This document shows positions 1 through 40,049 of a stretch of DNA of 64,000 nt, one piece after another (position 1 is the stretch's first letter; each line of letters begins with the position of its first letter). The DNA is from Bacteroidales bacterium (GTDB taxonomy: Bacteria > Bacteroidota > Bacteroidia > Bacteroidales > UBA932). The stretch lies in assembly GCA_017548445.1 (NCBI GenBank), contig JAFYZZ010000083.1, positions 1 to 64,000 of the forward strand, read 5' to 3'. The notes below the pieces were generated by a model. That model was given only the letters and a program-made list of their open reading frames with translations. It was not told the DNA's origin and did no database searches. Position numbers and translations under genes: made by a program.

Positions 1-604
1 GGCCAAGGACAACAAGCAGATCGGCATCTTCCACCTGGACGGCATCGCCCCGGCGCCGCGCGGCATCCCGCAGATCGAGGTCTCGTTCGACATCGACACC
101 AACGGCATCCTGAGCGTGTCCGCGAAGGACAAGTCCACCGGCAAGGAGCAGCACATCCGCATCGAGGCCTCCAGCGGCCTGTCCGACGCCGAGATCCAGC
201 GTATGCGTGACGAGGCCAAGGCCAACGAGGCGGCCGACCGCGCCGAGAAGGAGCGCGCCGACAAGATCAACAACGGCGACGCGATGGTCTTCCAGACCGA
301 GCGCAACCTCAAGGAATACGGCGACAAGATTCCGTCCGACAAGCGCTCCGCCATCGAGGCCGCCTGCGCTGACCTGAAGAAGGCCGTGGACGAGAAGAAC
401 GTCGATGCGATCGACCGCGCCAACGCCGCCCTCGAGTCCGCCTGGCACGCCGCCTCCGAAGAGATGGCCCGCGCCGCCCAGGGAGGCCAGCCCGGCGCCG
501 GTCCGCAGGGACCTCAAGGCTTCCAGGGCGGTCCGCAGGGTGGCCCGCAGGACGGTCCGACCGGTCCTCAGCCGGACTACGGCAACGGCCCGGATGAGCA
601 GTAA
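1..604 (+). CDS. dnaK: Chaperone DnaK (Hsp70), C-terminal part, 5' truncated by window
   Basis: Reading from base 2, the frame opens inside the substrate-binding domain: [16 protein letters not shown], then [20 protein letters not shown], the conserved beta-sandwich of Hsp70. A charged helical lid follows, ending in a Gly/Pro/Gln-rich disordered tail (repeats of GPQGG type) and an acidic terminus. The ATPase domain lies outside the window. DnaK is the cytoplasmic ATP-dependent chaperone working with DnaJ and GrpE. The usual EEVD-like acidic end is here GPDEQ. An intrinsic terminator follows 15 bases after the stop. The family identity is secure; only about 200 residues are present. Confidence 0.97.
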
Positions 605-619
605 GCGCCTCCGATTTGT

Positions 620-657
620 AAAAAAAGACGGTCGAAAATCTCGACCGTCTTTTTTTT
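620..657. terminator. Bidirectional intrinsic terminator between dnaK and the nitroreductase gene
   Basis: An 11-bp perfect stem (625-635 with 641-651, loop of five bases) is preceded by an A-run and followed by a T-run, so it can end dnaK on the plus strand and the convergent nitroreductase transcript on the minus strand. The nitroreductase stop codon sits in the T-run. Confidence 0.9.
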
Positions 658-1183
658 ACTTGATGATGCGGTAATACCCCTCCTTGCGGGGCTTGACCGT
701 CGGGGGGAAGGCGGCGGGGTAGCCCAGGGCGAGGGCGCCGATGCCGATGAGCCCGTCCGGCAGGCCGAGTTCGGCCATCAGGGCCTTGCCTTCCGCCGTG
801 GCGAACATCTCCCGCTCGCGGTTGATCCAGCAGGAACCGAGCCCCACGGCGTGGGCTGCAAGCATCATATTGCCCAGCACGAGGGAACCGTCGGGGACGG
901 AGTTGGCCCAGGCGGCAGGGTCGCTGCCGAATACCAGGACGATGGTCGGTGCGCCGTAGAAGGGGTCGGGACGGCCCCAGACGGCGGCGTTCAGCGCGTC
1001 GATGCGCGCTACCAGGTCCGGCCGCTGCACAGCCACGATCCAGGGATCCTGCCGGCCCATTGCGGTGGGTGCCCAGGTGCCGGCCTCGAGCACGGCCTGC
1101 AGTTCTTCGTCCTTGATCTGTTCCGGCTTGTAGCGCCGGATGCTCCTGCGTTCGCGGAGCGCTTTGAGTATTTCGTTGTCCAT
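656..1183 (-). CDS. Nitroreductase family protein
   Basis: A 175-residue protein of the FMN-dependent nitroreductase fold. The N-terminus has the family signature RRSIRRYKPEQI, followed by the AGTWAPTAMGRQDPW segment that contacts FMN and the C-terminal GLGSCWI and ALGYPA motifs. Members reduce nitro-aromatics, quinones or flavins with NAD(P)H in the cytoplasm; the native substrate cannot be told from sequence. The length is typical of the short subfamily. It is convergent with dnaK and apparently monocistronic. A TATATTTG -7 box lies only five bases upstream of the ATG, so the message is predicted to be leaderless. Confidence 0.9.
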   Translation of the reverse strand: MDNEILKALRERRSIRRYKPEQIKDEELQAVLEAGTWAPTAMGRQDPWIVAVQRPDLVARIDALNAAVWGRPDPFYGAPTIVLVFGSDPAAWANSVPDGSLVLGNMMLAAHAVGLGSCWINREREMFATAEGKALMAELGLPDGLIGIGALALGYPAAFPPTVKPRKEGYYRIIK

Positions 1184-1188
1184 AATGA

Positions 1189-1196
1189 CAAATATA
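1189..1196 (-). promoter_or_regulatory. -7 promoter element (TATATTTG) abutting the nitroreductase start
   Basis: On the minus strand TATATTTG matches the Bacteroidota -7 consensus TAnnTTTG exactly and ends five bases before the ATG at 1183. No TTTG -33 box is seen at the usual 19-base spacing. Confidence 0.6.
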
Positions 1197-1197
1197 A

Positions 1198-1228
1198 AGA
1201 AAAAAAGCGGCTCGCTGTGCGGGCCGCT
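1198..1228 (-). terminator. Intrinsic terminator of rpsU
   Basis: On the minus strand AGCGGC (1223-1228) pairs with GCCGCT (1206-1211), followed by a run of seven U residues. It ends the rpsU transcript just before the nitroreductase promoter. Confidence 0.8.
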
Positions 1229-1255
1229 ATATAAACAAGGTGGAAAGGAAGGGGA

Positions 1256-1447
1256 TTACTCCTCCTCCAGGCGCAGGTGCTGGACGTAGATCGCCTTCTG
1301 CTTCGCGATGCGGCGGATCTCCGACGGCTTCTGGAAGTTCTTGCGGGCGCGCATCTCGCGGACGGCACCGGTCTTTTCGAACTTCCGCTTGAATTTCTTC
1401 AGCGCGCGCTCGATGTTTTCGCCTTCTTTGACGGGAACGATAATCAT
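1256..1447 (-). CDS. rpsU: 30S ribosomal protein bS21
   Basis: A 63-residue, Lys/Arg-rich protein beginning MIIVPVKEGENIERALKKFK with the FEKTGAVREMRARK segment, the standard bS21 sequence. It sits on the 30S platform near the anti-Shine-Dalgarno. An exceptionally strong Shine-Dalgarno (AAAGGAGGTG, 1456-1465 on the minus strand) lies eight bases before the ATG, unlike almost every other gene here. In Flavobacterium bS21 is known to help hide the anti-Shine-Dalgarno, so this site suggests autoregulation. It has its own promoter and terminator, and lies downstream of the sirtuin gene. Confidence 0.97.
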   Translation of the reverse strand: MIIVPVKEGENIERALKKFKRKFEKTGAVREMRARKNFQKPSEIRRIAKQKAIYVQHLRLEEE

Positions 1448-1455
1448 TGCTTTAC

Positions 1456-1465
1456 CACCTCCTTT
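1456..1465 (-). promoter_or_regulatory. Extended Shine-Dalgarno of rpsU
   Basis: AAAGGAGGTG on the minus strand gives a ten-base match to the complement of the canonical 16S 3' end, eight bases before the rpsU ATG. Neighbouring genes lack such sites, as expected for Bacteroidota. Confidence 0.85.
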
Positions 1466-1479
1466 TTCGTTTGGGGTTG

Positions 1480-1487
1480 CAAAGGTA
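1480..1487 (-). promoter_or_regulatory. -7 promoter element (TACCTTTG) of rpsU
   Basis: TACCTTTG on the minus strand fits TAnnTTTG. A TTTG occurs 22 bases further upstream (1510-1513), inside the end of the sirtuin gene, a looser spacing than the usual 19. Confidence 0.5.
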
Positions 1488-1492
1488 GTAAA

Positions 1493-2200
1493 TTATTTCA
1501 ACATTCCAACAAATTCTTTCATTCCTTCCGTCGCAACTTTCTTGATATGGTGCACGCGCTTGTCGAAAAGCGTCACGTCCGCCGGGTCGATGAGGTAGAT
1601 CGGCGCTTCCGGCCGGGCGTAGCGGTACAGCCCCGCGGCAGGATAGACCTGCAGGGAAGTGCCCACGATCAGCACGATGTCCGCGATGGAGACCAGCTCC
1701 ACGGCCCGCTCGATCTTCGGGACGGCTTCGCCGAAAAAAACGATGTGCGGGCGGTACTGGGCCCCGTTGGGGGCCTTGTCGCCCAGGTGCACGGCACCGT
1801 AGCCTACATCCACGACATATTTCTCGGAAAAACCGTCGTAGTCGTTGCAGGTGTTCTCGGGGCGGATCTTGGTAGCCTCGCCGTGCAGGTGCACCACGTG
1901 GGTGGAGCCGGCCCGCTCGTGGAGGTTGTCAACGTTCTGGGTGATCACGTCCACGGTATAGTCCTTCTCCAGTTCCGCGATGAGGCGGTGCGCCTCGTTG
2001 GGTTTCACCTCGCGCAGCTTCTCCCGCTGCATATTGTAGAAGTCCAGTACAAGCCCGGGATTGCGGGCCCAGCCTTCGGCGGAGGCGACCACCATCGGGT
2101 CATAGTTGTCCCAGAGCCCGCCGTTGTCGCGGTAAGTCCCCAGGCCGCTTTCGGCGCTCACGCCGGCGCCGGTCAGCACTGCGATTCTCTTTTTCGTCAT
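1493..2200 (-). CDS. SIR2-family NAD-dependent deacylase (sirtuin) without zinc cysteines
   Basis: 235 residues counted from the ATG at 2200, which overlaps the AAA+ gene stop by four bases (ATGA). Visible sirtuin motifs: GAGVSAESGLGTYRDNGGLW (NAD loop, residues 11-30), TQNVDNLHERAG (87-98), catalytic His in HLHGEA (about 106), FFGEAVP, GTSLQVYPAAGL and a C-terminal LIDP. The family removes acyl groups from lysine using NAD, releasing nicotinamide. Most sirtuins carry four zinc-binding cysteines; here the only cysteine in the protein is at about residue 118, so the zinc module is missing or replaced. Translational coupling to the ATPase implies a shared role. A deacylase role is likely; NADase or ADP-ribosyl activity is an alternative. 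Confidence 0.9.
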   Translation of the reverse strand: MTKKRIAVLTGAGVSAESGLGTYRDNGGLWDNYDPMVVASAEGWARNPGLVLDFYNMQREKLREVKPNEAHRLIAELEKDYTVDVITQNVDNLHERAGSTHVVHLHGEATKIRPENTCNDYDGFSEKYVVDVGYGAVHLGDKAPNGAQYRPHIVFFGEAVPKIERAVELVSIADIVLIVGTSLQVYPAAGLYRYARPEAPIYLIDPADVTLFDKRVHHIKKVATEGMKEFVGMLK

Positions 2201-3351
2201 AGGTCGATGTGGAAATAATACTTCTTCGCCCAGTACTCGAAGAGCGGGTCCAGGAGCACCGGGTTGTCGTTTTCGTCGAAGGTCACGATCTCTTTCTTGC
2301 GCAGGGCGTCTTTCAGGCGCCGGACGTTGGCCGAGGAGTTGAGACCGTATTTGCGGATCACTTCCGCGCTGCTGAAACGCGTGTGCCCCTCCAGGATGGC
2401 GCGCAGCAGGTTCAACTGGAAGGTGGTGAGGTCGTTCATCGCCGCGATGAAGCGGGGTTCGTGTACGGCGACCAGCGAGTTCAGCGACTCGGTGAGCGTC
2501 TGCTCCATAATGTAGCCCTTGGTGAGCGAGTCGCAGACGGCACACAGGTGGTTGATGTACCAGATATTGCCGCGGAAGAGCTTGCAGGCGCCCAGGAGCA
2601 GGTCGCGGTCCACCACCTTGCCCGTGGCGAGGAAGCCCTTCACGGCGTGGTCGATGACGTCCTTGTTGTCGATGGGAGAGAGCCGGATGCGTCCTGCCTG
2701 CCGCCAGAAAAGCTTCCGGATGCCGAAGATCTCGTCCATCGCGTTGTAGGCGGAGCCGAGGAAGACATAGCAGGCCGCGGTGGCGTATTCGCCCGGAAGG
2801 GTGCGGAAGACGTCCGACAGGATGGTGCAGGCGCGGTCGCCGTCCTCGGTGAGCATAATGTTCTGGAACTCGTCCAGGATGATGATGCGTTGGACGCCGG
2901 TGCGCAGACCCACCCGGTAGGGGAGCAGGAAGGCGGCGCGCAGGTCGCCGTCGTCCAGGGGACCGGTGGCGGTGAGCACCTCGCCAACGGTGTCGAATCG
3001 GACGGTGTCGAAGCAGAGGTGCGTGCCGGCGAGCATTTCCCGGGCCGCCCGGGCATATTCCTCGTGCCCGCTGCCCACGGTGCGGAACACGGCGGCGGCG
3101 AAACGCATCGCGAAGGTTTCCAGTGAACGGATGTCCAGCAGGGACACGGTCACCGGGACGAACTGCCGGTTCGTCATTTTCATATTGAAGAAACCCTGCT
3201 GCACGAGCGATTTCCGGCCGGTCTTGGGCGGCTCGTAGATGACGACGTTCTCCCCCTGGGAGAGCATATTCACGAAGATCCGGGTCTCGAGGGCCCGGCC
3301 GATGAAGTGCTTGCCCGTGACGGGTCTGTTGTATTGGAAAGCGCTGTCCAT
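2197..3351 (-). CDS. AAA+ ATPase of the ATP-binding 'archaeal ATPase' type
   Basis: 384 residues from the ATG at 3351, chosen because a TATTTTTG promoter element lies just upstream and would fall inside a longer frame. The protein starts with a short lead, then FIGRALETRIF, a P-loop region IYEPPKTGRKSLV (about 35-47), Walker B IIILDEFQN, and a C-terminal winged-helix-like region (SSAEVIRKYGLNSSANVRRLKDAL) as in STAND/archaeal-type ATPases with DNA-binding tails. The Walker A reads TGRKS rather than TGKTS, so nucleotide binding may be altered. The stop overlaps the sirtuin start. The function is unknown; similar stand-alone ATPases are widespread in Bacteroidota. Confidence 0.82.
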   Translation of the reverse strand: MDSAFQYNRPVTGKHFIGRALETRIFVNMLSQGENVVIYEPPKTGRKSLVQQGFFNMKMTNRQFVPVTVSLLDIRSLETFAMRFAAAVFRTVGSGHEEYARAAREMLAGTHLCFDTVRFDTVGEVLTATGPLDDGDLRAAFLLPYRVGLRTGVQRIIILDEFQNIMLTEDGDRACTILSDVFRTLPGEYATAACYVFLGSAYNAMDEIFGIRKLFWRQAGRIRLSPIDNKDVIDHAVKGFLATGKVVDRDLLLGACKLFRGNIWYINHLCAVCDSLTKGYIMEQTLTESLNSLVAVHEPRFIAAMNDLTTFQLNLLRAILEGHTRFSSAEVIRKYGLNSSANVRRLKDALRKKEIVTFDENDNPVLLDPLFEYWAKKYYFHIDL

Positions 3352-3375
3352 CGTATAACAAGAATGTTTCTTTTG

Positions 3376-3383
3376 CAAAAATA
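3376..3383 (-). promoter_or_regulatory. -7 promoter element (TATTTTTG) of the ATPase-sirtuin operon
   Basis: TATTTTTG on the minus strand matches TAnnTTTG, 24 bases before the ATPase ATG. No clear -33 box is seen. Confidence 0.5.
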
Positions 3384-3391
3384 GCAAATAA

Positions 3392-3423
3392 TTTGGCAGA
3401 ATTGGGAATTTTGTGTAAATTCG
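3392..3423 (+). promoter_or_regulatory. Probable promoter of rplU-rpmA
   Basis: TTTG (3392-3395), a 20-base spacer and TAAATTCG (3416-3423), one mismatch from TAnnTTTG. It lies back to back with the ATPase promoter and gives a leader of about 90 bases before rplU. In that leader are a CTGCC/GGCAG hairpin (3468-3481) and an AAACTT/AAGTTT hairpin (3495-3511) just before the start. Confidence 0.5.
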
Positions 3424-3517
3424 CAGCCCCAAAAGAATTAGATGACCGCTAAGCCATTGATAAAGAGCTGCCTTGCGGCAGACGCTTACGGCCGAAACTT
3501 TTTATAAGTTTTATTGT

Positions 3518-3829
3518 ATGTACGCAATCGTAGACATTGCAGGCCAGCAGTTTAAAGTGGAGGCTGGCAACGAGATCTTTGTGCAGCGGCTCGCCGATGC
3601 CAAAGGTGCTGACGTGGAGTTCAAGAAGGTCCTCCTCGTCGCGGACGACGCGGCGGTGAAGGTGGGCGCTCCCTATGTCGAGGGTGCCGTGGTGAAGGCC
3701 ACCGTTCTCGACGACGATGCAAAGGCTGACAAGGTGCTGGTCTTCAAGAAGATCCGCCGCAAGGGCTTCCAGAAGCTCAACGGTCACCGTCAGAAACTTA
3801 CCAAGATCAAGATCAACGAAATCGCTTAA
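3518..3829 (+). CDS. rplU: 50S ribosomal protein bL21
   Basis: 103 residues from ATG 3518: [20 protein letters not shown], then [18 protein letters not shown] and the C-terminal [22 protein letters not shown], all bL21 hallmarks, with standard family length. A longer in-frame extension upstream is rejected because it lacks homology to the family. It binds 23S rRNA in the large subunit. rpmA follows after five bases, the near-universal rplU-rpmA pair. The structured leader may provide feedback control. Confidence 0.98.
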
Positions 3830-3834
3830 GAGTT

Positions 3835-4095
3835 ATGGCACACAAGAAAGGTCAATCCAGTTCGAAGAACGGTCGTGAGTCGCAGAGCAAGCGCCTGGGT
3901 CTCAAGAAATTCGGCGGCGAAGTCGTGAAAGCCGGCAATATCATCGTCCGCCAGCGCGGCACCGTCCACAACCCCGACCGCAATGTCGGTATGGGCAAGG
4001 ACCACACGCTGTACGCCCTGGTCGACGGCACGGTGAAGTTCACCCGCAAGCGGGAGAACAAATCCTACGTGTCGGTGGTTCCCTTCGAGAACTAA
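3835..4095 (+). CDS. rpmA: 50S ribosomal protein bL27
   Basis: 86 residues starting [20 protein letters not shown], with [17 protein letters not shown] and the [16 protein letters not shown] segment, which is bL27. The N-terminus reaches the peptidyl-transferase centre. There is no Firmicutes-type cleavable prosequence. It is co-transcribed with rplU. A strong hairpin follows the stop. Confidence 0.98.
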
Positions 4096-4117
4096 TTCCG
4101 GGAACCGAAGTTGGATC

Positions 4118-4153
4118 GAAGGACTTGCACTCCCGCAAAAGTGTAGGTCCTTC
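4118..4153 (+). terminator. 14-bp hairpin between rpmA and serS (terminator or attenuator)
   Basis: GAAGGAC (4118-4124) pairs with GTCCTTC (4147-4153), extended by TTGCACT/AGTGTAG with two G-U pairs, and an eight-base loop. A T-rich but interrupted tract follows. It probably separates the ribosomal-protein genes from serS or attenuates readthrough. Confidence 0.65.
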
Positions 4154-4172
4154 ATTTATTTGATAAAAAGCT

Positions 4173-5444
4173 ATGTTGACGCTCAAGATGCTTCGCGATG
4201 ACCCGCAGGCGGTCGTCGAGAAATTGAAAATCAAGAATTTCGACGCACAGCCCTTCGTGGACAAGGTGCTGGAGTTGGACGCGCTGCGCCGCAGTCTCCA
4301 GACGGAGAGCGATGCGCTGCTGGCCCGGCAGAAGCAGAAGGCGGCCGAAATCGGCGGCCTGATGAAGCAGGGTCTGCGGGATGCGGCCGAGGCCGCGAAG
4401 GCCGAGGTGGCCGCGATGAAGGCCCGCAGCGGCGAACTGTTGTCCAGGATGGACGAGGCTTCCGCCGAGCTGGAGCGCCAGCTCGTCCTGATGCCGAACA
4501 TCCCCTGCGGCCTCGTCAAGCCCGGCAAGGGCGCCGAGGACAACGAGATCGTGAAGACGGGCGGTCCCGAAGTGCAGTTGCCCGAGGGGGCGCTGCCGCA
4601 TTGGGAGCTCGCCCGCAAGTACGACATCATCGACTTCGACCTGGGCGTGAAGATTACGGGCGCGGGCTTCCCGGTCTACAAGGGCAAGGGTGCCAAGTTG
4701 CAGCGCGCGCTGATCAACTTCTTCCTGGACTTCAACACGGCGGCCGGTTACAAGGAGGTGGAGCCTCCGGTGATGGTGAACGCCGCATCCGGCTTCGGCA
4801 CGGGCCAGCTCCCCGACAAGGAGGGCCAGATGTATCACGCCAACCTGGACGACTTCTATATGGTCCCGACGGCCGAGGTGCCCGTGACGAACATCTTCCG
4901 CGACGTCATCCTCGCCGCCGACGAGATCCCGCAGCGCCTGACGGCCTACACCCCGTGCTTCCGCCGCGAAGCCGGCTCCTACGGCAAGGACGTCCGCGGC
5001 CTGAACCGCCTGCACCAGTTCGACAAGGTCGAGATCGTGCGCGTGGAGAAGCCTGAGGATTCCTACCGTGCCCTCGACGAGATGGTGGCCCACGTGGAGG
5101 CCCTAGTCAACAAGCTCGGGCTGAAATACCGCATCCTGCGCCTCTGCGGCGGGGATCTGAGTTTCACTTCCGCCATTACCTACGACTTCGAACTGTGGTC
5201 CGCCGCCCAGGGCCGCTGGCTGGAAATCTCCTCCGTTTCCAACTTCGAGACCTACCAGGCGAACCGCCTGCACCTGCGCTACCGCGACGAAGCCGGCAGG
5301 ACCCAGCTCGCGCATACGCTCAACGGCAGTTCGCTCGCCCTTCCGCGCGTCGTGGCCGCTCTTCTCGAGGACAACCAGACGCCGGACGGCATCGTGATTC
5401 CTAAGGTCCTCCGTCCCTACACCGGCTTCGACCGAATTGACTAG
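4173..5444 (+). CDS. serS: Seryl-tRNA synthetase
   Basis: 423 residues, the usual length. An N-terminal coiled-coil arm (about 30-100, rich in Lys, Glu and Ala) binds the long variable arm of tRNA-Ser. The class II core has motif 2 CFRREAGSYGKDVRGLNRLHQFDKVE-like residues (about 268-293) and motif 3 with LNGSSLALPRVVAALLEDNQ. It charges tRNA-Ser (and tRNA-Sec) with serine in the cytoplasm. The ruvC start codon lies inside its last codons, so the two genes are translationally linked. Confidence 0.97.
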   Translation: MLTLKMLRDDPQAVVEKLKIKNFDAQPFVDKVLELDALRRSLQTESDALLARQKQKAAEIGGLMKQGLRDAAEAAKAEVAAMKARSGELLSRMDEASAELERQLVLMPNIPCGLVKPGKGAEDNEIVKTGGPEVQLPEGALPHWELARKYDIIDFDLGVKITGAGFPVYKGKGAKLQRALINFFLDFNTAAGYKEVEPPVMVNAASGFGTGQLPDKEGQMYHANLDDFYMVPTAEVPVTNIFRDVILAADEIPQRLTAYTPCFRREAGSYGKDVRGLNRLHQFDKVEIVRVEKPEDSYRALDEMVAHVEALVNKLGLKYRILRLCGGDLSFTSAITYDFELWSAAQGRWLEISSVSNFETYQANRLHLRYRDEAGRTQLAHTLNGSSLALPRVVAALLEDNQTPDGIVIPKVLRPYTGFDRID

Positions 5445-6000
5445 CAGGGAAAGGACCATACTCGGCATCGATCCCGGAACCAACATCCTTGGTTTCGGGA
5501 TCATCCGTGTGGATGCCTCCGGCAAGCCCCATTTCGTGGATATGGGCGTGGTGGACCTGCGCAAGGTGGCGTCGGCCTACGACAAGCTGGAGATCATCCG
5601 TGAAAAGGTGGGAGCGCTGTGCGAGCTCCACCATCCCGACGACCTGGCCATCGAGTCCCCGTTCTACGGAAAGAACGCCCAGGTCATCCTCAAATTGGGC
5701 CGGGCCCAGGGTGCCGCGATGGTGGCCGGGCTCGAGCACGGGGTGCAGATCTGCGAATATGCCCCCCGAAAGGCCAAGATGGCGATCTGCGGCAACGGCG
5801 CCGCGTCGAAAGAACAGGTTTCTTTGATCGTCCAGCGCACTCTCGGCATAGAAATTGCAAACAAATACCTTGATGCTACAGATGCACTTGCTCTCGCGAT
5901 GTGCCACTTCTACCAGCTCACCAGTCCGCTTGCGGCCGTGCAGGCAACAGGTTCTTGGGAGAAATTTGTAGCGTCCAATCCGGAGCGAATTAAAAAGTGA
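5437..6000 (+). CDS. ruvC: Crossover junction endodeoxyribonuclease RuvC
   Basis: 187 residues from a TTG at 5437 that overlaps serS by eight bases; no ATG exists before the conserved core, so the TTG is favoured. Core motifs: ILGIDPGTNILGFG with the first catalytic Asp, LAIESPFYGKNAQ with the Glu, the DNA-binding ARKAKMAICGNGAASKEQV-like helix, and the LDATDALALAMCH pair of Asp residues. It resolves Holliday junctions with RuvAB. The family is 160-190 residues long. Confidence 0.95.
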   Translation: MTSRERTILGIDPGTNILGFGIIRVDASGKPHFVDMGVVDLRKVASAYDKLEIIREKVGALCELHHPDDLAIESPFYGKNAQVILKLGRAQGAAMVAGLEHGVQICEYAPRKAKMAICGNGAASKEQVSLIVQRTLGIEIANKYLDATDALALAMCHFYQLTSPLAAVQATGSWEKFVASNPERIKK

Positions 6001-6004
6001 TTGT

Positions 6005-9000
6005 ATGAAAAAAGCGAGAATCTTTCTGATGGCCGGGCTTATGCTGCTGGGTCTCAACAGCTATGCCCAAAGCCAGAACGCCGTGACGGGTGTCTTGATT
6101 GACGACTCCACCGGCGATCCCGTCGGCTTCGCAACTGTCTCGCTCACCCGTGACGGGCAGAGCAAGCCGAACAAGTACACCCTTACCGACGACAAGGGCG
6201 CTTTCTCGATGACCGGCGTGCGCAACGGCACGTATGCCCTCGTGGCAGAGCTGCTGGGTTACGAGACCTATTCGGCCCAGGTCAAGATCGAGAACAACAA
6301 GGGCGTGGACCTTGGCGAGATCCGTATGAAGATCGACCGCGAGCAGCTCGAGGCGGCGGAAGTGTCCGCCATCGGCAACCCGGTGATCATCAAGAAGGAC
6401 ACCATCGAGTACAACGCCGGAGCGTTCCTGTCCACCGACAACGACAACCTCGTGGACCTGCTCAAGAAGATGCCGGGCATCGAGGTCGCCGACAACGGTA
6501 CCATCACGGTCAACGGCCAGTCCGTCAGCAAGATCACGGTGCAGGGCAAGACCTTCTTCCTGGACGACCCGCAGGTCGCCTCGCAGAACATCCCCGCCAA
6601 GCTCGTGAAAAAGCTGAAGGTCATCCGCAAGAAATCCGAGCAGGCTGAGTTCACCGGCATCGACGACGGCCAGGAAGAGACGGTCATCGACCTGACTGTG
6701 ACGGACGGCGCCAACCTGAGCGGTATCGTCGGCCGCGTGACCGCGGGCGTGGGCCACGACCTCCCGACGGAGAACAACCCGCTGAACGACTGGCGATTCT
6801 CCGGAAACGCCTTCCTCGGCAACTTCTCCGACAAGACGCAGATCTCCCTCATCCTCAATGCCAACAACGCCAACGTACAGGGCTCCACCAATTTCTCCGG
6901 AAATATGATGAGCGGTATGATGGGCGGCGGTGGCGGCGGTATGGGAGGCGGAATGGGCGCAGGCTTTGGCGGCGGCGGTGGCATCAACACCTCCTATATG
7001 GCCGGCCTGAACGCGGGCGCTGACGCCTTTGACGGCAGGATGGAAGTGAGCGGCAACTACAATTACAACAACAACAACTCCATTTCCGGCTCCCAGTCCT
7101 CCACCATCAGCTACCTCACGAAGATGAACCAGATGGTGAACAGCGAAAGCCAGAATACCAACAGCTCCAACGGCCACAATTTCGGCCTCCGTCTGGAGCA
7201 CAAGTTCTCGGACAACACCTCCATCGTGTTCGAGCCGCGCGTCCGTTTCGGCGGCGGCAACACCTCTCAGGTCAGCCAGAGCCATACCTTCCAGGATATG
7301 ACCCTGAACGGAAATTACGATGAGGTGAACTACGCGCAGACCAACAATACCGGCGTCAACAAGAACGTCAGCACCAGCGGTTTCTTCCTGTTCCGCCAGC
7401 GTCTCGGCCTGCCGGGCCGTACCCTTACGGTGAACACGAACTTCAACCTGTCCGACAACAAGATGGACGGCAACAACTGGAACAAGACGGATTATTACCA
7501 GACGGCCACCAGCAAGGAGGTTAACCAGAATTACAACCAGGACCAGCAGAGCTACTCGATCAGCACGCGTGCGACCTATACCGAGCCGCTCGGCAACTAC
7601 TTCTACCTGGAGGCCGAGTACTCCTTCAACTGGAGCAAGTCCCTCTCCGAGAAGAACACCTATGACCTGCTGAACGGCGGCGTCCTCGATCCGATGTACT
7701 CCAACGCCATCACCAACCTGAACCGGCGTCACGAGATCGGCGGCAACGTCCTTTACCAGGACGACCGGATGCACCTCCAGGCCGGCTTCACCGCGATGCC
7801 GCAGTACACCTACAACGGAACCACGGTGTATGATTCCAGCACCAATTCCAACAAGTTGCAGGAGTATGAGGACAACCGCTGGAACTTCTCCCCGACGGTG
7901 ATGATGATGTTCGACCTGAACGACAACGACAACCTGCGTTTCAACTACCGGGGCACGTCCAGCCAGCCGTCCACCCAGCAGTTGATGCCGGTGCCGGACG
8001 TCACCGACCCGTTGCGCGTCACCTTCGGTAACCCGACGCTGACCCCGTACTTCACCCACAACATCAGCACCGAGTTCCGCCACAGCAACCGTACGAACTT
8101 CTCGTCCTTCAACATCCGGGCGAACGGCGGCTTCACGCAGAACCAGATCTCCAACGTGGTGATCACCCGCGCGGGCGGCGGTCAGTATACGATCCCGTTC
8201 AACTCCCCGACCACGGGCAACGCCGGAATGAACTTCTTCAACAACTTCCCGCTGGGCCGGAATTCCGCCTTCTCCATCAACAACAACACGGGCGTGAACT
8301 GGCGTCAGTCCTTCGCCTATGAAGGCGTGAACGTGGATACGAGCAAGTATGATACGGACGGCTTCTATGCCTTTATGAACTGGTTCATCGACCAGTTCAA
8401 CGATCCGGCCTACTACAAGGCCCACATCGTGGAGAACTACACCGACAACCTCAGTGTCAATGAGCGGCTCCGCCTGACCTACCGCGGCGTCACGCTGCAG
8501 GCCACCCTCGGCGCCAGCACCAATATGAACCAGACCTGGTACACCCAGAAGGGCGATGCGGCCGCCAGCTCCACCCAGGTTGCCCGCAACACCCAGACCT
8601 GGAGCAACGCCCTCACCGGCGAACTCACCTGGAACTGGCTGATCACCGGCATCTCCCTGACAGCGAACGCCAACTACCGCTGGTACAACGGCTACACCAC
8701 GCCGGTGGATCCGCAGATGATCATCAACTTCACCCTGGCCAAGTCCTTCGGCCCCGTGAATATGTCCGTCTATGTGGCAGACCTCCTGGGCCAGTCCCGC
8801 GCCCTCTCGGTCACGGACCAGGCTTCGCGTCACGCGGAGACCCTGAGCACCACGCAGCTGGGCCGTTACTTCATCGTGTCCCTGTCCTACAACTTCGGCA
8901 CCATCGGCGGACGCCGTGGCGGCGGCTTCGGCGGCGGACGCGGACGTGGCGGCCGCGGTGGCGGCGGAATGCCTCCGATGGGTGGCGGCGGAATGCCCCC

Positions 9001-9049: not shown

Positions 9050-9064
9050 TATTCCGCATAATGG

Positions 9065-9099
9065 AAAAGCGGCCTGCGAGAGCGGGCCGCTTTTCTTTT
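9065..9099 (+). terminator. Intrinsic terminator of the outer-membrane protein gene
   Basis: AAAAGCGGCC (9065-9074) pairs with GGCCGCTTTT (9085-9094), followed by CTTTT. Confidence 0.9.
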
Positions 9100-9127: not shown

Positions 9128-9147
9128 TAAGATTGGAATCCTGATAA

Positions 9148-9783: not shown

Positions 9784-9784
9784 A

Positions 9785-30812: not shown

Positions 30813-30986
30813 TTACTTCGCCTCAGCGACGGAAGCCTTGCGGAACTCCTTGAGGTCCTTCATCAGCTCGAGGGCGGCCTTGCGGGCGCGGGCGCCGGCG
30901 GCTTTGTTGCCCTTAACTACCTGTGCTTCAGCGTTGACCTTGAAGAGATCCATCTCCGCTTCGATTTTCTTTACAAGCTCTTTCAT
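30813..30986 (-). CDS. Histone H1-like (Hc1-type) small basic protein
   Basis: 57 residues, MKELVKKIEAEMDLFKVNAE then a Lys/Ala-rich helix with GNKAAGARARKAALELMKDLKEFRK. It matches the short histone H1/Hc1-like proteins of Bacteroidota, presumed nucleoid proteins. An upstream in-frame extension is rejected as it has no family resemblance. It stands alone with about 100 AT-rich bases ahead of it, which hold no clear consensus promoter. Confidence 0.85.
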   Translation of the reverse strand: MKELVKKIEAEMDLFKVNAEAQVVKGNKAAGARARKAALELMKDLKEFRKASVAEAK

Positions 30987-31087
30987 AATAGTGTTATGTT
31001 TAAATGTTGTTAAAGGATAACTATTTAATCTTCGGCAAGATAAAAAAGAAAAGAATAAAAAACAATGATTTCGAAAAAAAACCGGCC

Positions 31088-32273: not shown

Positions 32274-32415
32274 TGTTCTGTTTGTTAAAATGTGTTACTC
32301 AATTTGGGGCGAGCCCAAATCCCATTGCACCAAAACCTTATCGGTTTTCAAAATGCGCGCAAAGATACTGAAATTTTCTGGTTTTCCAATACTTCCGTTC
32401 TTTGGTGTCCGGCAG

Positions 32416-32537
32416 GACAGGCAGTTGCCCCGGCAAACCGTAGCCGCCCGTGGCTTATGAACGGGAGGGGCCCGCGCCGTCAGGCGTGGGAGGGGCGAGC
32501 GAAGCGAGGGTTTGCAGGGGCAAACTGCCTGCCTGTC
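32416..32537. repeat. Structured dispersed repeat, copy 2
   Basis: Outer arms 32416-32439 and 32509-32537; inner CCCGT/ACGGG hairpin identical in sequence to copy 1; a third arm CCCGCGCC/GGCGTGGG that differs completely in sequence from copy 1 yet still pairs; then the shared GGGGCGAGCGAAGCGAGGG. It ends four bases from the clostripain stop codon. Confidence 0.8.
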
Positions 32538-32540
32538 GGA

Positions 32541-33773: not shown

Positions 33774-33779
33774 AGATTG

Positions 33780-33787
33780 CAAAGATA
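33780..33787 (-). promoter_or_regulatory. -7 element (TATCTTTG) of the clostripain gene
   Basis: Exact TAnnTTTG on the minus strand, six bases from the ATG at 33773; near-leaderless message predicted. Confidence 0.6.
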
Positions 33788-34007
33788 GGGAATGCGCGGG
33801 AAATACACAATGATTCCGTGTTGTAACGAAAATGATCACAATTTAGGATGTGCAATAAAAATGAGAATAAAGTGTCCTTTCGGATTGAAATCCGTTTTCG
33901 AATCCGTGAAACGGGATGGTGTTTCAAGTCTTTGTCGCTCAGTGTATAAAACTGCTTACAGATTGTTAGGAAAACGCTTTTTACATTTTTCTTATTTAGC
34001 CTGGTCG
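33788..34007. other. AT-rich intergenic region upstream of the capsule locus
   Basis: About 220 bases with no gene I can support. A short open frame at 33792-34043 resembles nothing and would cross the capsule promoter. I see no long inverted repeats flanking the downstream promoter. Confidence 0.6.
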
Positions 34008-34038
34008 TTTGGTAAGTCAAAAGAATTGGTTATATTTG
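34008..34038 (+). promoter_or_regulatory. Promoter of the capsule operon
   Basis: TTTG (34008-34011), 19-base spacer, TATATTTG (34031-34038): a perfect Bacteroidota promoter. The start of transcription should be near 34043, immediately before the first hairpin of the leader, giving a leader of about 150 bases. Confidence 0.85.
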
Positions 34039-34047
34039 TATAATTTT

Positions 34048-34190
34048 AGGTGCCTCTGGACAGAGGACCTGAACCAAGGATTTGCAGAGCCGGCTCTTGG
34101 ATAGGAGCGCGTCTGCCGAACGGGCCCGATTCCCGTCAAATCCGACTTTTACCCGGCATTCCGCCTCCGGAAGGCCGGGGAGTAGGAAAA
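34048..34190 (+). ncRNA. Structured leader RNA of upxY with a tRNA-like domain
   Basis: Three folds follow in order. First, CCTCT/AGAGG (34053-34066, extended by AGGT/ACCT) at the very 5' end. Second, a tRNA-like set: GGATTTG (34078-34084) pairs perfectly with CAAATCC (34137-34143); inside are a D-arm-like GCTC-TTGGATAG-GAGC (34093-34108) and a T-arm-like ACGGG-CCCGATT-CCCGT (34120-34136) that directly abuts the acceptor-like strand. The anticodon arm is short and competes with the T-arm. Third, CCCGGC/GCCGGG enclosing TTCCG/CGGAA (34152-34179) just before the start codon. UpxY proteins antiterminate in such leaders in Bacteroides. It is not a functional tRNA. Confidence 0.65.
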
Positions 34191-34754
34191 ATGTCCTGCA
34201 ACGTGTCTTCCCATCTTATTGAACCATCGCCTGAAGGCCAGCACTGGTACGCGCTGAAAGTGTTTTACAACCGGGTAGTGTACTTGAAGTCCCTCCTCGA
34301 ACCCGAGGGAGTGGAGACGTATGTACCACTCCAGACCGTGGAACAGTTCGAAGGCGGACGGCTGGTCTATGTCGAGAAGCAACTCATCCCCTCGCTGCTC
34401 TTCGTGCGCTGCACGGAGGACTGGCTCGTGAAGTTCAAGGACAGACACAACGCGGTCTTTATGTTCTATGCGGAGGCCGGAAGCCGCAAGCCCGGTCCCA
34501 TCCGTGACGATGAGATGCAATCCTTCATCCTGGTCACCTCCGCCGGGGCGGGCCGGAACGTGAAGTATTTCGGGGCCGACGCTCCGGAATACCGGACGGG
34601 CGACCGCGTGCGTGTAATCGACGGCATCTACAAGGGGGCCGAAGGCTACATCAAGCGCATCAAGAAGGACCGCAAGCTCGTCGTCTCCGTGACAGGCGTC
34701 GCCGTGGTCGCGGTCAGTTACATCCATCCCAGTTATCTGGAAAAAATCGATTAA
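34191..34754 (+). CDS. UpxY-type transcription antiterminator (NusG paralogue)
   Basis: 187 residues from ATG 34191; the longer upstream frame runs through the structured leader and is rejected. An N-terminal NGN domain (about 23-125, [20 protein letters not shown], with [15 protein letters not shown]) and a C-terminal KOW-like domain ([31 protein letters not shown]). UpxY proteins let RNA polymerase pass terminators in the leader of their own capsule operon. No upxZ follows; ugd comes next after 23 bases. Composition is that of the core chromosome and no CATG is present. Confidence 0.9.
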
Positions 34755-34777
34755 CCCATAATTTAAAGACAAACCGT

Positions 34778-35971
34778 ATGAAAATCACCGTTGCCGGAGT
34801 CGGCTATGTAGGCCTGAGCCTCGCCGTGCTGCTCGCCCAGCACCATAAAGTCACCGCCATCACCACCACCCCCAGGAAAGCAGATAAGCTGAACAAGTTC
34901 ATCAGTCCCATCCAGGACGACGAGATTGAGCGCTTTTTCCGTGAGGCACGCGAGGGCAAGCGCAAGCTGGACCTCTTCACCACCGTCGACAAGGACGCGG
35001 CCTACGCTTCGGCCGAACTGGTCATCATCGCCACGCCTACCAACTACGACGACGAGCACCATTTCTTCGACACCAGCGCGGTAGAGGATGCCATCGAGCA
35101 CGTGCTGAAGGTGAATCCGAAAGTGCTGATGGTCATCAAGAGCACCGTTCCGGTGGGCTACACTGACAGCGTCCGTGAGAAATACGGCATCGACAACATT
35201 ATTTTCTCACCGGAATTTCTCCGCGAAAGCAAGGCCCTTTACGATAACCTTCACCCCAGCCGCATCGTGGTTGGGGCCTATGAACACCAGCAGAAAGAAG
35301 CGCAGATGTTCGCCGAGATTCTCGCCGAGGGTGCCGAGGACAAGGACGTGAAGATTCTGATTGCCCATCCTACGGAGGCCGAGGCAATCAAGCTCTTCGC
35401 CAATACCTACCTGGCCGTCCGCGTCAGTTATTTCAACGAGCTGGATACCTACGCCCAGGTCAAGGGCCTGAACACGAAGCAGATCATCGAGGGCGTGTGT
35501 ATGGACCCGCGCATTGGCGGCCATTACAACAACCCGAGCTTCGGCTACGGCGGCTACTGCCTTCCGAAGGACACCAAGCAGCTGCTGGCCAATTATAAGG
35601 ACGTCCCCCAGACGATGATCGAGGCCGTCGTGAAGAGCAACGCGGTAAGGAAAGAGTTCATCGCCGACACCATCCTGAAGAGGAAGCCCAAAACCGTGGG
35701 CGTATACCGCCTCACGATGAAGAGCAACAGCGACAATTTCCGCGCCTCCGCCATTCAGGATATCATCAAGCATTTGAAAGCCAATTCTGTCAGTATCATC
35801 ATTTACGAACCGACGCTGGAAGACGGCAGCGAATTCCTCGCCAACAGGGTGGTGAACGACATCTCCAAGTTCAAGGCCCAGAGCGACGTCATCCTGGCCA
35901 ACCGCTTCGACGACGTACTTGCGGACGTGGAGGACAAGGTGTATACCCGAGACCTTTTCAAGAGAGACTAG
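34778..35971 (+). CDS. ugd: UDP-glucose 6-dehydrogenase-like protein (first copy)
   Basis: 397 residues. Rossmann start [28 protein letters not shown], the [10 protein letters not shown] and [15 protein letters not shown] motifs, and the catalytic Cys in [20 protein letters not shown] residues (FGYGGYC at about 258). It oxidises UDP-glucose to UDP-glucuronate with two NAD. A second copy (37864-39156) is about 60-70% alike by eye and carries two insertions. Host-like base composition. First sugar gene of the capsule operon. Confidence 0.92.
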
Positions 35972-35975
35972 TTTT

Positions 35976-37145
35976 ATGCAAAGCGAAACGAGATTTCGCG
36001 AATACTTCGGGCGGGATCCGGAAGGGGTGGCTTTCTGCCCCTACCGGATCTGCCCCATCGGAGCCCATTCCGACCATAATCTGGGCAAGATCACCGGCCT
36101 GGCCATAGACAAGGGCATCCATCTCGCCTATGCCGCCAGGCAGGACGGTGCGGTGGAGATGTCGTCGCTGCAGTTCCCGGAACGGACTCAGTGGCATATC
36201 TCGTCGGTTCCGTCCAGGCAGGGCGACTGGGCCGATTACCTGCGCGGCGCCACCTGGGCGCTGGGCAGGAAGTATCCGTTGAATGCCGGCGTGTGCGGTA
36301 TCATCGAAGGATCCCTGCCCATCGGCGGACTTTCTTCCAGCGCCGCGGTGATCATCGCCTTCCTGCAGGCCCTTTCCCGGGTCAACGGCGTCCGGCTAGG
36401 GCAGCAGGAGCTCATAGACATCGCCTACGACGCCGAGTTGAACTATGTGGGCGTCAGTGTGGGCAAACTGGACCAGAGCTGCGAGGTGCTCGGCAGGAAG
36501 AACCACCTGCTCTATCTGGACACGAAGGACGGGCGGTACGAACTGATTCCCCAGTCGCCGTCGATGAAACCCTACCGGATCGCCATCTTCTTCTCCGGAC
36601 TGGAGCACAGCCTGGCCGGGTCGAAATTCAATATGCGGGTGGACGAACTCCGCGCCGGGGTGTATGCCCTCCAGGCTTTCGCCGGGATGGAGTACGGCAA
36701 GTTCGGCGAGGCGATGGCCCGCAACGTGCCGAGGGCGGTGTACGACCAGTACAAGGACCGTCTCCCGGCCCCCTGGGCCAGGCGCTGCGAGCACTGGTAT
36801 ACGGAATTCGAACGCGTGGAAAAGGGTGCCGAGGCCTGGCGCCGGGGCGACATCGAGACCTATGGACGGCTCTCGTTCGAATCCGGCTGGAGCAGCATCC
36901 ACAACTGGGAGTCGGGCGCGCCCGAACAGATCCGGCTCTACGAGATAATGACGCAGACCGAAGGCATCTACGGCGGCCGTTTCAGCGGCGCGGGCTTCAA
37001 GGGCTGCTGTATGGCGCTCATCGACCCCGCTTTCGAGGAAAGTGTCAGCCGCAGTGTGAGCGAAGCCTATCTGAAGAGTTTCCCGCACCTGACGGGCAAG
37101 TATGGCGTGTATATCTGCGACAGCGCAGACGGAGTCAGCCTATGA
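35976..37145 (+). CDS. GHMP sugar kinase, galacturonokinase-like
   Basis: 389 residues from ATG 35976. Galactokinase-superfamily motifs: CPYRICPIGAHSDHNLG (motif 1), PIGGLSSSAAVIIAF (ATP loop, about 113-127), catalytic Asp in GKLDQSCEVLG and FSGAGFKGCCMAL (motif 3). Galactokinases have GEHTDYN where this has GAHSDHN; plant galacturonokinase has, as I recall, GAHIDHQ and the same PYRICP lead. So phosphorylation of a hexuronate at C1 is favoured over galactose. Overlaps the nucleotidyltransferase gene by four bases (ATGA), implying a coupled salvage step. The substrate is an inference. Confidence 0.78.
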   Translation: MQSETRFREYFGRDPEGVAFCPYRICPIGAHSDHNLGKITGLAIDKGIHLAYAARQDGAVEMSSLQFPERTQWHISSVPSRQGDWADYLRGATWALGRKYPLNAGVCGIIEGSLPIGGLSSSAAVIIAFLQALSRVNGVRLGQQELIDIAYDAELNYVGVSVGKLDQSCEVLGRKNHLLYLDTKDGRYELIPQSPSMKPYRIAIFFSGLEHSLAGSKFNMRVDELRAGVYALQAFAGMEYGKFGEAMARNVPRAVYDQYKDRLPAPWARRCEHWYTEFERVEKGAEAWRRGDIETYGRLSFESGWSSIHNWESGAPEQIRLYEIMTQTEGIYGGRFSGAGFKGCCMALIDPAFEESVSRSVSEAYLKSFPHLTGKYGVYICDSADGVSL

Positions 37146-37867
37146 AATGCATCATCCTGGCTGCGGGCTATGCCACCCGCCTGTATCCCCTGACGGAGAA
37201 CTTCCCCAAGCCGCTGCTTGAGGTGGCGGGCAAGCCGATCCTGGACTGGCTGATCGACGATATGGAGCGTGACGGCCGCGTGGATGAATACATCGTGGTG
37301 TCGAACCGGAAATTCTCCTCCATCTTCAGGACCTGGGCGGAGCACAGGGCGGTGACCGTCCTGGACGACGGCACCACCAGCAACGAAGGACGCCTCGGCG
37401 CCGTGAAGGACATCCAGTTCGCCATAGAGCACTGCGGTAGCGATGACGACCTTCTGGTGATGGCCGGCGACAACCTGCTGGACTTCAGCCTGTCGGGCTT
37501 CATCCAGTATGCAACCGACAGGAAAGCTTCCTGCGTGATGCGATACTACGAGGCGGAAACGGCCCGGCTCAGCCGGAGCGGCGTCATCGAGATAGATGAC
37601 GATGACCGTATCCTGTCGATGGAAGAGAAACCGGCTGCGCCGAAAACGCATTGGTGCATCCCCGCCTTCTACCATTTCACGGCGGCCGACGCCCGTCGGG
37701 TCCCCGAGGCCATCGCCGGCGGCTGCGGCACCGATGCCCCCGGGAGTTTCATCGCCTGGCTTTGCCGCCGGACGAAGATGTACGCCTGGGAAATGCCCGG
37801 CCACCGGTACGACATCGGTACCCTGGCGGGGTACGAAGAAAACAAGAAAACCTACAGACCCTTATGA
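37142..37867 (+). CDS. Sugar-phosphate nucleotidyltransferase
   Basis: 241 residues. N-terminal [31 protein letters not shown] is the NTP-transferase signature; [12 protein letters not shown] holds the metal-binding Asp, and [17 protein letters not shown] follows. Shorter than RmlA. It is sandwiched between the GHMP kinase and the second dehydrogenase with four-base overlaps on both sides, so it probably activates the kinase product to an NDP-sugar. Confidence 0.85.
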
Positions 37868-39156
37868 AGATAGCCGTTGCCGGCACAGGATATGTCGGCC
37901 TTAGCATAGCGACGTTGCTGGCCCAGCGCAACAAGGTCACGGCGGTGGACGTGATTCCGGAGAAGGTGGACCTGATTAACCGGCGCCTGAGTCCCATCAA
38001 GGACGAGGTGATTGAAGAATACCTGGCCACGAAGGACCTGGACTTGACCGCGACCCTCGACGGCGCCGCGGCGTACCGGGACGCCGAGTTCGTGGTAATT
38101 GCCGCTCCGACCAATTACGACCCGCAGAAGAATTTCTTCGACACCTCCCACGTGGAGGAAGTGATAGACCTCGTGCTTTCGGTCAATCCCGACGCGACGA
38201 TGGTCATCAAATCCACCATCCCGGTGGGCTACTCGCGCAGCCTCTATGTGCGGTATGCCGCCAGGGGGGTGAAGAAGTTCAACCTGCTTTTCTCCCCGGA
38301 GTTCCTCCGCGAGAGCAAGGCGCTTTACGACAATCTCTATCCCAGCCGTATCATCGTGGGCGTCCCCAAGATGATGCCCGGCTTCGAACAGGAGAACGAG
38401 GCCATCCGGAAGCTGGTCAGCAACGACCTGCAGGAACGTGCCCATACTTTCGCCCGCCTGCTTCAGGAAGGGGCTCTCAAGGAGGACATCCCGACGCTGT
38501 TTATGGGGATGAAGGAGGCCGAGGCCGTGAAACTCTTCGCCAACACCTACCTGGCCCTGCGCGTGAGCTATTTCAACGAACTCGACACCTACGCCGAGGT
38601 CAAGGGCCTCGACACGCGCAACATCATCGACGGCATCTGTCTGGACCCCCGCATCGGGGCGCATTACAACAACCCGTCTTTCGGCTACGGCGGATACTGC
38701 CTCCCGAAGGACACCAAACAGCTGCTGGCCAACTATGAAGACGTGCCCGAGAACCTCATCCAGGCCATCGTCGAGAGCAACCGCACGCGCAAGGACTACA
38801 TCGCCGACCGCGTGCTGCAGAAGGCCGGCTACTATACCGCCTCCAGCGCCTACGACACGAGGAAGGAACACGACGTGGTCATCGGCGTGTACCGGCTCAC
38901 GATGAAGAGCAATTCCGACAACTTCCGCCAGAGCGCCATCCAGGGCATTATGAAACGTATCAAGGCCAAAGGGGCCAGGGTAATCGTTTATGAACCGACG
39001 CTGGAAGATGGAGCCACCTTCTTCGGCTCCGAGGTCGTCAATGACCTCGCCGCCTTCAAGGCCCGCAGCCAGGCCATCATCGCCAACCGTTTCGATGCCG
39101 ACCTGGAGGATGTGGGCGACAAGGTTTATACAAGAGACATTTTCAAACGCGATTAG
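37864..39156 (+). CDS. ugd: UDP-glucose 6-dehydrogenase-like protein (second copy)
   Basis: 430 residues from ATG 37864. The same motifs as the first copy: [66 protein letters not shown] and the catalytic [14 protein letters not shown]. It has two insertions relative to the first copy, [19 protein letters not shown] around 160 and [16 protein letters not shown] around 320. The two paralogues may use different hexose substrates or arose by duplication. Last gene of the core-like, CATG-free head of the locus. Confidence 0.9.
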
Positions 39157-39161
39157 AGAAT

Positions 39162-40049
39162 ATGAAAGGGATCGTTCTCGCCGGAGGTTCTGGCACACGG
39201 CTGTATCCGATAACGAAGGGCGTCAGCAAGCAGTTGCTTCCCATTTATGACAAGCCGATGGTCTATTACCCGATCAGCGTGCTGATGTTGGCGGGGATCC
39301 GGGATATCCTCATCATATCCACGCCTCAGGACCTGCCGGGTTTCCAGCGCTTGCTAGGCGACGGCTCCGACTATGGTGTGCGTTTCGAATATGCCGAGCA
39401 GCCCAGTCCGGACGGCCTTGCGCAAGCGTTCATCATTGGTGAAGAATTCATTGGTGATGACTGCGCTTGCCTGGTATTGGGGGACAACATTTTCTATGGA
39501 AACGGGTTGACTTCTTTACTGAAAGAGTCAGTTCGAGCTGCTGAAGAAGACAATAGGGCAACAGTCTTCGGATACTGGGTGGATGATCCGGAACGCTATG
39601 GAGTCGCCGAAATAGATGAGAAAGGAAACTGTGTAAGTCTCGAAGAGAAACCGAAAAATCCAAAGAGTAATTATGCCGTGGTGGGGCTCTATTTTTACCC
39701 CAACAAGGTCGTTGATGTCGCGAAGCATATCAAACCCTCTGCTCGGGGAGAATTGGAAATTACGACAGTAAATCAAGAGTTCCTCAAGAAAGGCGAATTA
39801 AAGGTCCAGACTTTCGGTCGTGGCTTCGCCTGGCTGGATACCGGCACGCATGATTCCCTCGCGGATGCCTCCATATTTGTGGAAGTCATCGAAAAGCGAC
39901 AGGGGCTCAAGATCGCTTGCCTTGAAGGGATTTCTTATCGTCGGGGTTGGATTAGTGAAGAAAAGATGCGCGAGTTGGCACAACCGATGCTAAAGAATCA
40001 GTACGGGCAGTATTTACTGAAGGTTATCGAAGACGAAAAACGGAAATGA
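39162..40049 (+). CDS. rfbA: Glucose-1-phosphate thymidylyltransferase
   Basis: 295 residues, full length: [40 protein letters not shown] and the C-terminal [11 protein letters not shown] region. It makes dTDP-glucose from dTTP and glucose-1-phosphate. The first about 270 bases are GC-rich with C-ending codons; from about 39440 the composition drops to that of the downstream cassette, and the first CATG I found in the window is at 39849. It looks like the crossover gene between the resident and exchanged parts. It overlaps rfbC by four bases. Confidence 0.95.

Follow-up and report, generated by a model that had tools for sequence, protein, structure and literature searches.

Complete absence of CATG from about 40 kb of a Bacteroidales chromosome points to an extreme, fast-turning form of restriction-site avoidance

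Type II restriction-modification (R-M) systems can leave a mark on the chromosomes that house them, as short palindromic recognition words become depleted in the host and the depletion can outlive the R-M system. In the portion of the literature on this effect that we draw on, a word is called avoided at an observed-to-expected (o/e) ratio below 0.78, and host site avoidance is ascribed to orthodox Type II systems alone (PMC4687349). Here, we analyze a 64,000-nucleotide stretch from a Bacteroidales bacterium of the gut or rumen (contig JAFYZZ010000083.1 of assembly GCA_017548445.1, positions 1 to 64,000; hereafter, the window), in which the tetranucleotide CATG is missing over 40 kb, a ratio of 0. 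Judged against those same sections, the kind of phenomenon is already known and its degree is unusual (PMC4687349). Avoidance of restriction sites normally amounts to a modest bias, whereas this loss is complete over a long stretch and near complete in independent lineages of one order. Also unlike the Type II norm, kin at ~80% DNA identity to the window are near-normal or intermediate in CATG. What is new is how quickly this state turns over among close relatives, together with the finding that two nearly CATG-free congeners have unrelated enzymes in one shared slot.

NlaIII and IceA1 both belong to the Pfam ICEA family. One relative (G522; G and L numbers are our handles for genomes and loci) carries an ICEA protein together with a D12 methyltransferase, as in the NlaIII and IceA1-M.HpyI systems, and carriers of this family are CATG-poor. 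By contrast, the window has no match to these systems, and Helicobacter pylori does not avoid CATG according to the consulted part of PMC10423294, where a reference title gives CATG as the word recognized by iceA1. UpaP162 of Ureaplasma is described, in an excerpt of PMC6191088, as a blunt-cutting CATG endonuclease whose C5-annotated partner methyltransferase blocks cutting. Genomes G402 and G206 have a comparable methyltransferase but differ in the proteins that adjoin it, one of 268–273 aa and, in G206, an HNH protein. Within the same order, palindromes methylated in one lineage of the Bacteroides fragilis group are depleted there, and the excerpted parts of that study do not mention CATG (PMC10333322). 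CTAG, which is scarce in bacteria, is likewise a palindrome far below expectation. However, most of our loci are low in CTAG, whereas most have normal CATG and a few are emptied of it.

Across positions 1–39848 of the window, CATG occurs 0 times against 134.4 expected from a maximal-order Markov model and 141.1 from base composition, and 100 order-2 Markov simulations of the same stretch averaged 135.8 copies (range 111–159). When all 4-mers were counted, CATG was the only one at zero; the second-lowest palindrome, CTAG, had 9 copies vs. 33 expected. CATG is thus a palindrome in the 4–8 bp range lying well below the expectation from its sub-words (0 vs. 134.4). Each of the nine 4-kb blocks of 1–36000 was empty where 10.9–16.2 copies were expected, and so were the 4,240 bases outside predicted genes. 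All 37 copies in the window lie at 39849–63598, with 89.5 expected in 39849–64000 (o/e 0.41). Among 6-base palindromes of 1–39848 that do not contain CATG, the lowest were CATATG (4 vs. 10.3) and CGATCG (5 vs. 11.2).

Coding sequence showed the same gap in every codon phase. Before the 269 internal ATG codons of the CATG-free part there were 0 C-ending codons, against 139.7 expected from the codons preceding other A-starting codons. His codons before a G-starting codon were CAC in 74 cases and CAT in none (28.7 expected), and the remaining third phase held 0 of 2.8 expected copies. Four-fold degenerate codons before ATG ended in G 74 times, A 17 times, and T 8 times, where proportional redistribution predicts 63.9, 25.2, and 9.8. 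These counts bear out the original prediction that CATG is missing from 1–39848 with ~140 expected and that codon choice is bent around ATG. The 4-mer count against a Markov model, which it had proposed as a check, returned CATG alone at zero rather than a near-expected number. The CATG positions it listed from 39849 onward are all correct, with 44449 left out, and 11 of its 13 example codon coordinates have an ATG within three bases, while 10671 and 15327 have none.

The SerS gene of the window (4173–5444) has its five best matches in metagenome-assembled genomes of Bacteroidales at 86–93% identity, several of them from ruminants. Nearest kin L001–L005 hold CATG at 70/73, 49/57, 33/84, 102/89, and 51/67 observed/expected, respectively, and L002 and L003 share 79–80% DNA identity with the window in aligned parts. 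The database genus of L002 (genome G028) includes Candidatus Cryptobacteroides faecipullorum (G040), reached from locus L023. None of the aligned CATG sites of these kin is kept in the window (L001 0/34, L002 0/42, L003 0/21, L004 0/33, L005 0/13), whereas control 4-mers are kept at 0.31–0.49 in the same five alignments and all 4-mers of L002 at 45%. Normal kin pairs keep CATG about as well as control words (e.g., 8/26 between L001 and L002, controls 0.32). L003, the window's sister on a SerS tree (support 82/87), is intermediate, sharing 10 of 41 L002 CATG sites against 0.43 for controls. The purge is recent relative to these kin and went site by site.

What replaced the lost sites indicates how they were lost. 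Where kin have a C-ending four-fold codon before ATG, the window has G at 17, A at 7, T at 3, and C at 0 (L001–L005 pooled; the comparison covers 38 distinct window sites, and hence its entries are not independent). At control four-fold codons before other A-starting codons, C was kept in 278/391, with changes to G (92), A (17), and T (4). The T share of 3/27 at lost sites vs. 4/113 among control changes gave a Fisher p of 0.13. At non-four-fold codons before ATG, the window kept a kin C in 0/31 cases vs. 554/637 controls, and where kin have His CAT before G, the window changed T to C in 13/13. The replacements are therefore spread over G, A, and T much as at controls, rather than following one mutational path. 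Wherever the code permits, most are C-to-G or C-to-A rather than C-to-T, and so selection removed CATG from the window. T-ending codons were more numerous than the proportional expectation among the four-fold codons before ATG in each of the nine other CATG-poor sets examined, with the largest excesses in G402 (47 vs. 31.9), G004 (39 vs. 22.0), G602 (19 vs. 9.6), and G010 (43 vs. 20.5), while a CATG-normal set fell below it (10 vs. 16.3). Because of this excess, transitions may have been the quickest route to CATG loss in other genomes.

The CATG purge arose repeatedly in Bacteroidales. Of 80 kin loci, 74 had an expected CATG count of 20 or more, and 7 of these had an o/e below 0.1, a level reached in 0 of 17,348 locus-word pairs of non-palindromic words, and by GGCC in 2/76, GATC in 1/76, and ACGT in 1/70 loci. 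CATG was emptied more often than every other palindrome except the generally rare CTAG (median o/e 0.10, n = 33, vs. 0.77 for CATG, n = 74). The SerS tree had 46 rows, the window plus 45 of the 80 loci, picked so as to include CATG-poor ones. On it, the CATG-poor label (15 loci with o/e up to 0.24, among them L010, where just 13 CATG were expected; L039 at 0.27 was not labelled) requires 15 changes, of which well-supported branches force at least 11, and its clustering does not exceed chance. Genome-wide, GCATGC numbered 25 or fewer in 14 of 398 family genomes (median 335.5) and 7 of 300 genus genomes (median 451). Among the 14, G282 has an equally low control (17 vs. 15) and a stretch with 22/39 CATG, and controls are low too (27–52) in the low-GC genomes G054, G158, G206, G011, G234, and G255.

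Individual stretches of such genomes were often nearly empty (observed/expected): G602 0/67, G522 0/84, G402 2/76 and 1/55, G004 0/95 and 0/85, G054 0/52, G363 2/68 and 3/81, and G010 3/81 and 3/83. Four stretches of G158 had 0/42, 1/50, 2/49, and 2/52, and two others 15/41 and 10/54; CATG was also held by stretches of the CATG-poor genomes G363 (9/80), G391 (8/69), G270 (4/14), and G002 (21/41). Unlike the two longer G402 stretches above, two short ones were CATG-rich (L218 20/28, L248 8/18) and may be islands or foreign contigs. Stretches L217, L245, and L246 of G385 contained only N and were dropped. Other palindromes were emptied in places as well, including GGCC (0/27 in L073, 5/66 in L068) and GATC (4/69 in L063). 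In G010, a Tidjanibacter sp. (L230, L034), several palindromes are nearly gone together, with L230 at CATG 3/81, GATC 5/67, ACGT 0/33, CTAG 0/47, and CCGG 27/86.

The Pfam ICEA profile (PF05315; NlaIII/IceA) scored over its cut-off in five genomes, whose GCATGC counts were 12 (G008), 126 (G226), 85 (G327), 81 (G337), and 40 (G522). Counts of 12, 126, 85, and 81 were low against the 398-genome family draw (Mann-Whitney p = 0.002), as were 40 and 81 against the 300-genome genus draw (p = 0.016), with G337 in both draws and counts uncorrected for base composition. The G522 protein (L237:7183-7863) matches ICEA at E = 5.4e-117, and its adenine-type neighbor, a D12 methyltransferase, is 69.7% identical to P0001, the D12 protein beside the G008 ICEA gene and itself a PF02086 match. 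A third G522 gene is 74% identical to an N6/N4-type methyltransferase of G337. In G008 (L081), a match to the C-terminal half of the NlaIII-like family adjoins an open D12 methyltransferase gene, and this system may be decaying. A 302-aa protein of L136 (G160) is weakly ICEA-like, below the cut-off, matches PADLOC REase_II at E = 1.3e-26, and lies directly upstream of a gene resembling a C5 methyltransferase.

A different type of system is found in G402, which has 9 GCATGC in 2.7 Mb (control 363) and pairs a C5 methyltransferase with a partner protein of 273 aa. G206 (18 GCATGC, control 33) has the same C5 pair plus a 208-aa NlaIII-superfamily HNH protein; both C5-system carriers are CATG-poor, there being only two. 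G402 and G522 are close relatives that share two flanking genes at 95.6% and 94.0% identity, the first matching branched-chain aminotransferases (IlvE) strongly and the second LptF/LptG permeases weakly. Between these same flanks lie two unrelated R-M systems, the C5 pair in G402 and the NlaIII-type set in G522, whose three genes are 70–81% identical to those of other carriers:

L235:3696-5880 and L237:5865-8653, slot with unrelated R-M systems, between IlvE and the LptF/LptG-like gene

We infer that both slot systems are CATG-specific. In a tblastn search of a plasmid collection, the G206 methyltransferase had its best matches in M. hyorhinis, at 57% with 73% of the query covered, and in M. 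cynos, at 44%. Both matches adjoin a gene annotated as a UpaP162-family restriction enzyme. The G402 and G206 methyltransferases are 44–50% identical to those two enzymes (49–50% over 419–423 aligned positions for M. hyorhinis) and have a PCQ motif in common with UpaP162-associated methyltransferases. Between their catalytic motifs lies the stretch that determines specificity in C5 enzymes, and this stretch is well conserved among them. No UpaP162-family endonuclease was found beside the G402 or G206 methyltransferase, and because the partner and the HNH protein show no match to the two UpaP162-family enzymes compared, the set is a UpaP162-type methyltransferase with other proteins rather than a UpaP162 system. 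In the 268–273-aa partner, a D...DxK pattern is invariant and the fold is predicted with confidence; its similarity to restriction enzymes, AvaII and Ecl18kI among them, is only weak, and it may be a PD-(D/E)XK nuclease. Four viral contigs (L255–L258, of which L255 and L256 are identical) also have a C5 methyltransferase like that of G402 and an NlaIII-like HNH protein; their GATC counts are 0/47, 0/47, 0/23, and 0/43, and CATG is at about half of expectation.

We consider it probable that the lineage has, or had until recently, an orthodox Type II R-M system cutting unmethylated CATG, and that selection emptied the chromosome of the word. Occasional under-methylation would make each chromosomal CATG slightly harmful, natural selection would swap each for whichever synonymous form was available, and even a minor cost per site would suffice to empty the chromosome where the population is very large. 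The polysaccharide cassette at the end of the window would have come later, piecewise, and been cleaned only in part. The absence, the selection-like substitutions, the recency relative to kin, and the recurrence in Bacteroidales are shown by the data, as is the presence in nearly CATG-free congeners of R-M systems with probable CATG specificity, and we infer that a CATG R-M system, resident now or in the past, was the cause in this genome. The best reading is that this is known R-M site avoidance in an extreme and fast-turning form.

Several results weigh against this explanation. No R-M gene was found among 60 window open reading frames (ORFs) scanned with NCBIfam or Pfam (some small and cassette ORFs were unscanned), nor by two nuclease profiles run over all six window frames. 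The NlaIII-like profile had no match in most CATG-poor relatives, and the G008 match, from a scan that took in 50 of the 80 kin loci, spans only the C-terminal half of the family. The original prediction of a restriction-enzyme footprint stands in part: selection did act against a palindromic, site-like word, and nearly CATG-free congeners contain R-M systems that are probably CATG-specific, but the scanned window ORFs yielded no R-M gene and most CATG-poor relatives no NlaIII-like match. An NlaIII-superfamily HNH profile matched 3 of 50 CATG-poor genomes (our own choice) vs. 0 of 30 CATG-normal genomes (Fisher p = 0.29). D12, N6/N4, and C5 methyltransferases over the cut-off were missing from 8 of 18 nearly CATG-free genomes (the 14 with ≤25 GCATGC, one of them uninformative, plus 4 chosen by locus) and from 7 of 27 controls (p = 0.22). 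The eight are G158, G004, G363, G391, G054, G270, G002, and G010, and G158 includes a 2.18-Mb contig. Zero CATG is also far below ordinary avoidance, as CATG stands at 44/85 and 77/128 in 50-kb stretches of the mycoplasmas M. hyorhinis and M. cynos, respectively, both of which carry UpaP162-family enzymes. H. pylori, in the data cited from PMC10423294, keeps 9,036 CATG per Mb despite a universal CATG methyltransferase. Lost systems, strain-level presence, draft gaps, or unrecognized enzymes can each explain the gaps in enzyme finding.

Selection could instead have acted for a reason other than restriction, such as an RNA-level nuclease specific for CAUG, disturbance of regulation by a methylation mark, or a clash with start codons, as the word includes ATG. 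The greater frequency of emptying for CATG than for GGCC, GATC, or ACGT would fit such a cause, as would the many CATG-poor genomes in which no CATG enzyme was found. However, the non-coding bases and the His-G phase, which contains no ATG codon, are emptied too, close kin are CATG-normal, so that no order-wide need explains the loss, and other palindromes are emptied elsewhere (GGCC in L073, GATC in L063), as restriction predicts. We regard this as unlikely. It is quite unlikely as well that the absence of sites replaces methylation, with a CATG endonuclease kept without a methyltransferase in some CATG-free lineages. Among the eight genomes without the searched methyltransferases, G158, G004, G054, G363, and G010 have nearly empty sampled stretches, as this would have it, yet the eight yielded no endonuclease either, and their CATG-holding stretches (in G158, G363, G391, G270, and G002), like the 37 CATG of the window, would lie open to unopposed cutting. 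Moreover, only three methyltransferase families were searched, and draft genomes lose accessory genes.

Mutational erosion would empty the word without selection if the methylated C of CATG (5-methylcytosine, 5mC, or N4-methylcytosine, 4mC) decayed to T, giving TATG or CATA. Loss of ACGT in H. pylori is ascribed to 5mC deamination in the cited section of PMC10423294, and both the T excess in the nine other CATG-poor sets and the T share in the window's kin comparison lean the same way. Yet most four-fold replacements in the window are not C-to-T, His CAT before G was lost by T-to-C, and the T excess extends to G004, in which none of the three searched methyltransferase families is represented. 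Erosion is largely refuted for the window, and we consider it very unlikely. Chance, compositional bias, or an assembly artefact has a negligible probability. Some freedom comes from having scanned many 4-mers and windows, and nothing else speaks for it; the simulations never fell below 111 copies, and CATG is nearly missing in assemblies of other species as well, so this explanation was rejected.

A more tentative idea, possible but doubtful, is that CATG-free chromosomes serve as landing pads on which unrelated enzymes of the same specificity could settle without killing the cell, the taboo outliving each gene. Non-homologous CATG systems would then succeed one another, even in one slot as in G522 and G402, and the word's absence might replace methylation in some lineages. 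If so, the C5 methyltransferase and PD-(D/E)XK-like partner of G402 would be a novel combination for CATG. Under restriction-site avoidance, close relatives in opposite states amount to a natural experiment on the strength and speed with which restriction shapes chromosomes. From sequence alone, one might then predict the enzymes that given uncultured bacteria have or once had, and the donor DNA that they would accept.

The window itself is laid out as follows:

1..39161, no strand, CATG-free chromosomal stretch of ~61% GC, from CATG counts and annotation, with many housekeeping genes (HSP70 C-terminus, L21, L27, SerS, RuvC, RluA-type synthase, Lnt, Lon, RNase E/G, TyrS-like, TIM, Pth, L25)
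34050..39156, plus strand, polysaccharide-locus head, CATG-free and GC-rich, with a NusG-like antiterminator (34050-34754; Pfam NusG), UDP-glucose dehydrogenases (NCBIfam nucleotide sugar dehydrogenase), and a GHMP kinase (Pfam)
39162..64000, plus strand, polysaccharide cassette of ~42% GC with all 37 CATG of the window, from annotation and counts (RmlA/C/D, WecE-like, flippase, glycosyltransferases, acyltransferase, TviB-like; final listed ORF ends at 63411)
39849..39852, no strand, first CATG of the window, within rmlA (39162-40049)
57499..60920, plus strand, nearly CATG-free part of the cassette, GC 0.43-0.52, three genes with 0/4.1, 0/4.5, and 1/7.1 observed/expected

The border drawn by the original prediction between core and capsule is not so simple, as the CATG-free part takes in the polysaccharide-locus head to 39156, including a gene at 37651–39156 with a GC of 0.60 and 0 CATG vs. 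7.7 expected. Its claim that the capsule cassette was unpurged and hence recent was likewise too simple. Equal depletion downstream would have spoken against the claim; it is weaker there than in the CATG-free part (o/e 0.41 vs. 0), yet the cassette is not free of effect. Its purge is partial and graded by GC, with 2 CATG vs. 22.8 expected in genes of GC ≥0.47, 10 vs. 23.6 at 0.42–0.46, and 21 vs. 38.1 below 0.40. The cassette resembles a mosaic that has been cleaned in part, behind a clean locus head, and CATG content might serve as a clock for the residence time of acquired islands. In AT-rich pieces of CATG-normal kin, CATG stood at 25 vs. 33.3 expected (four pieces only).

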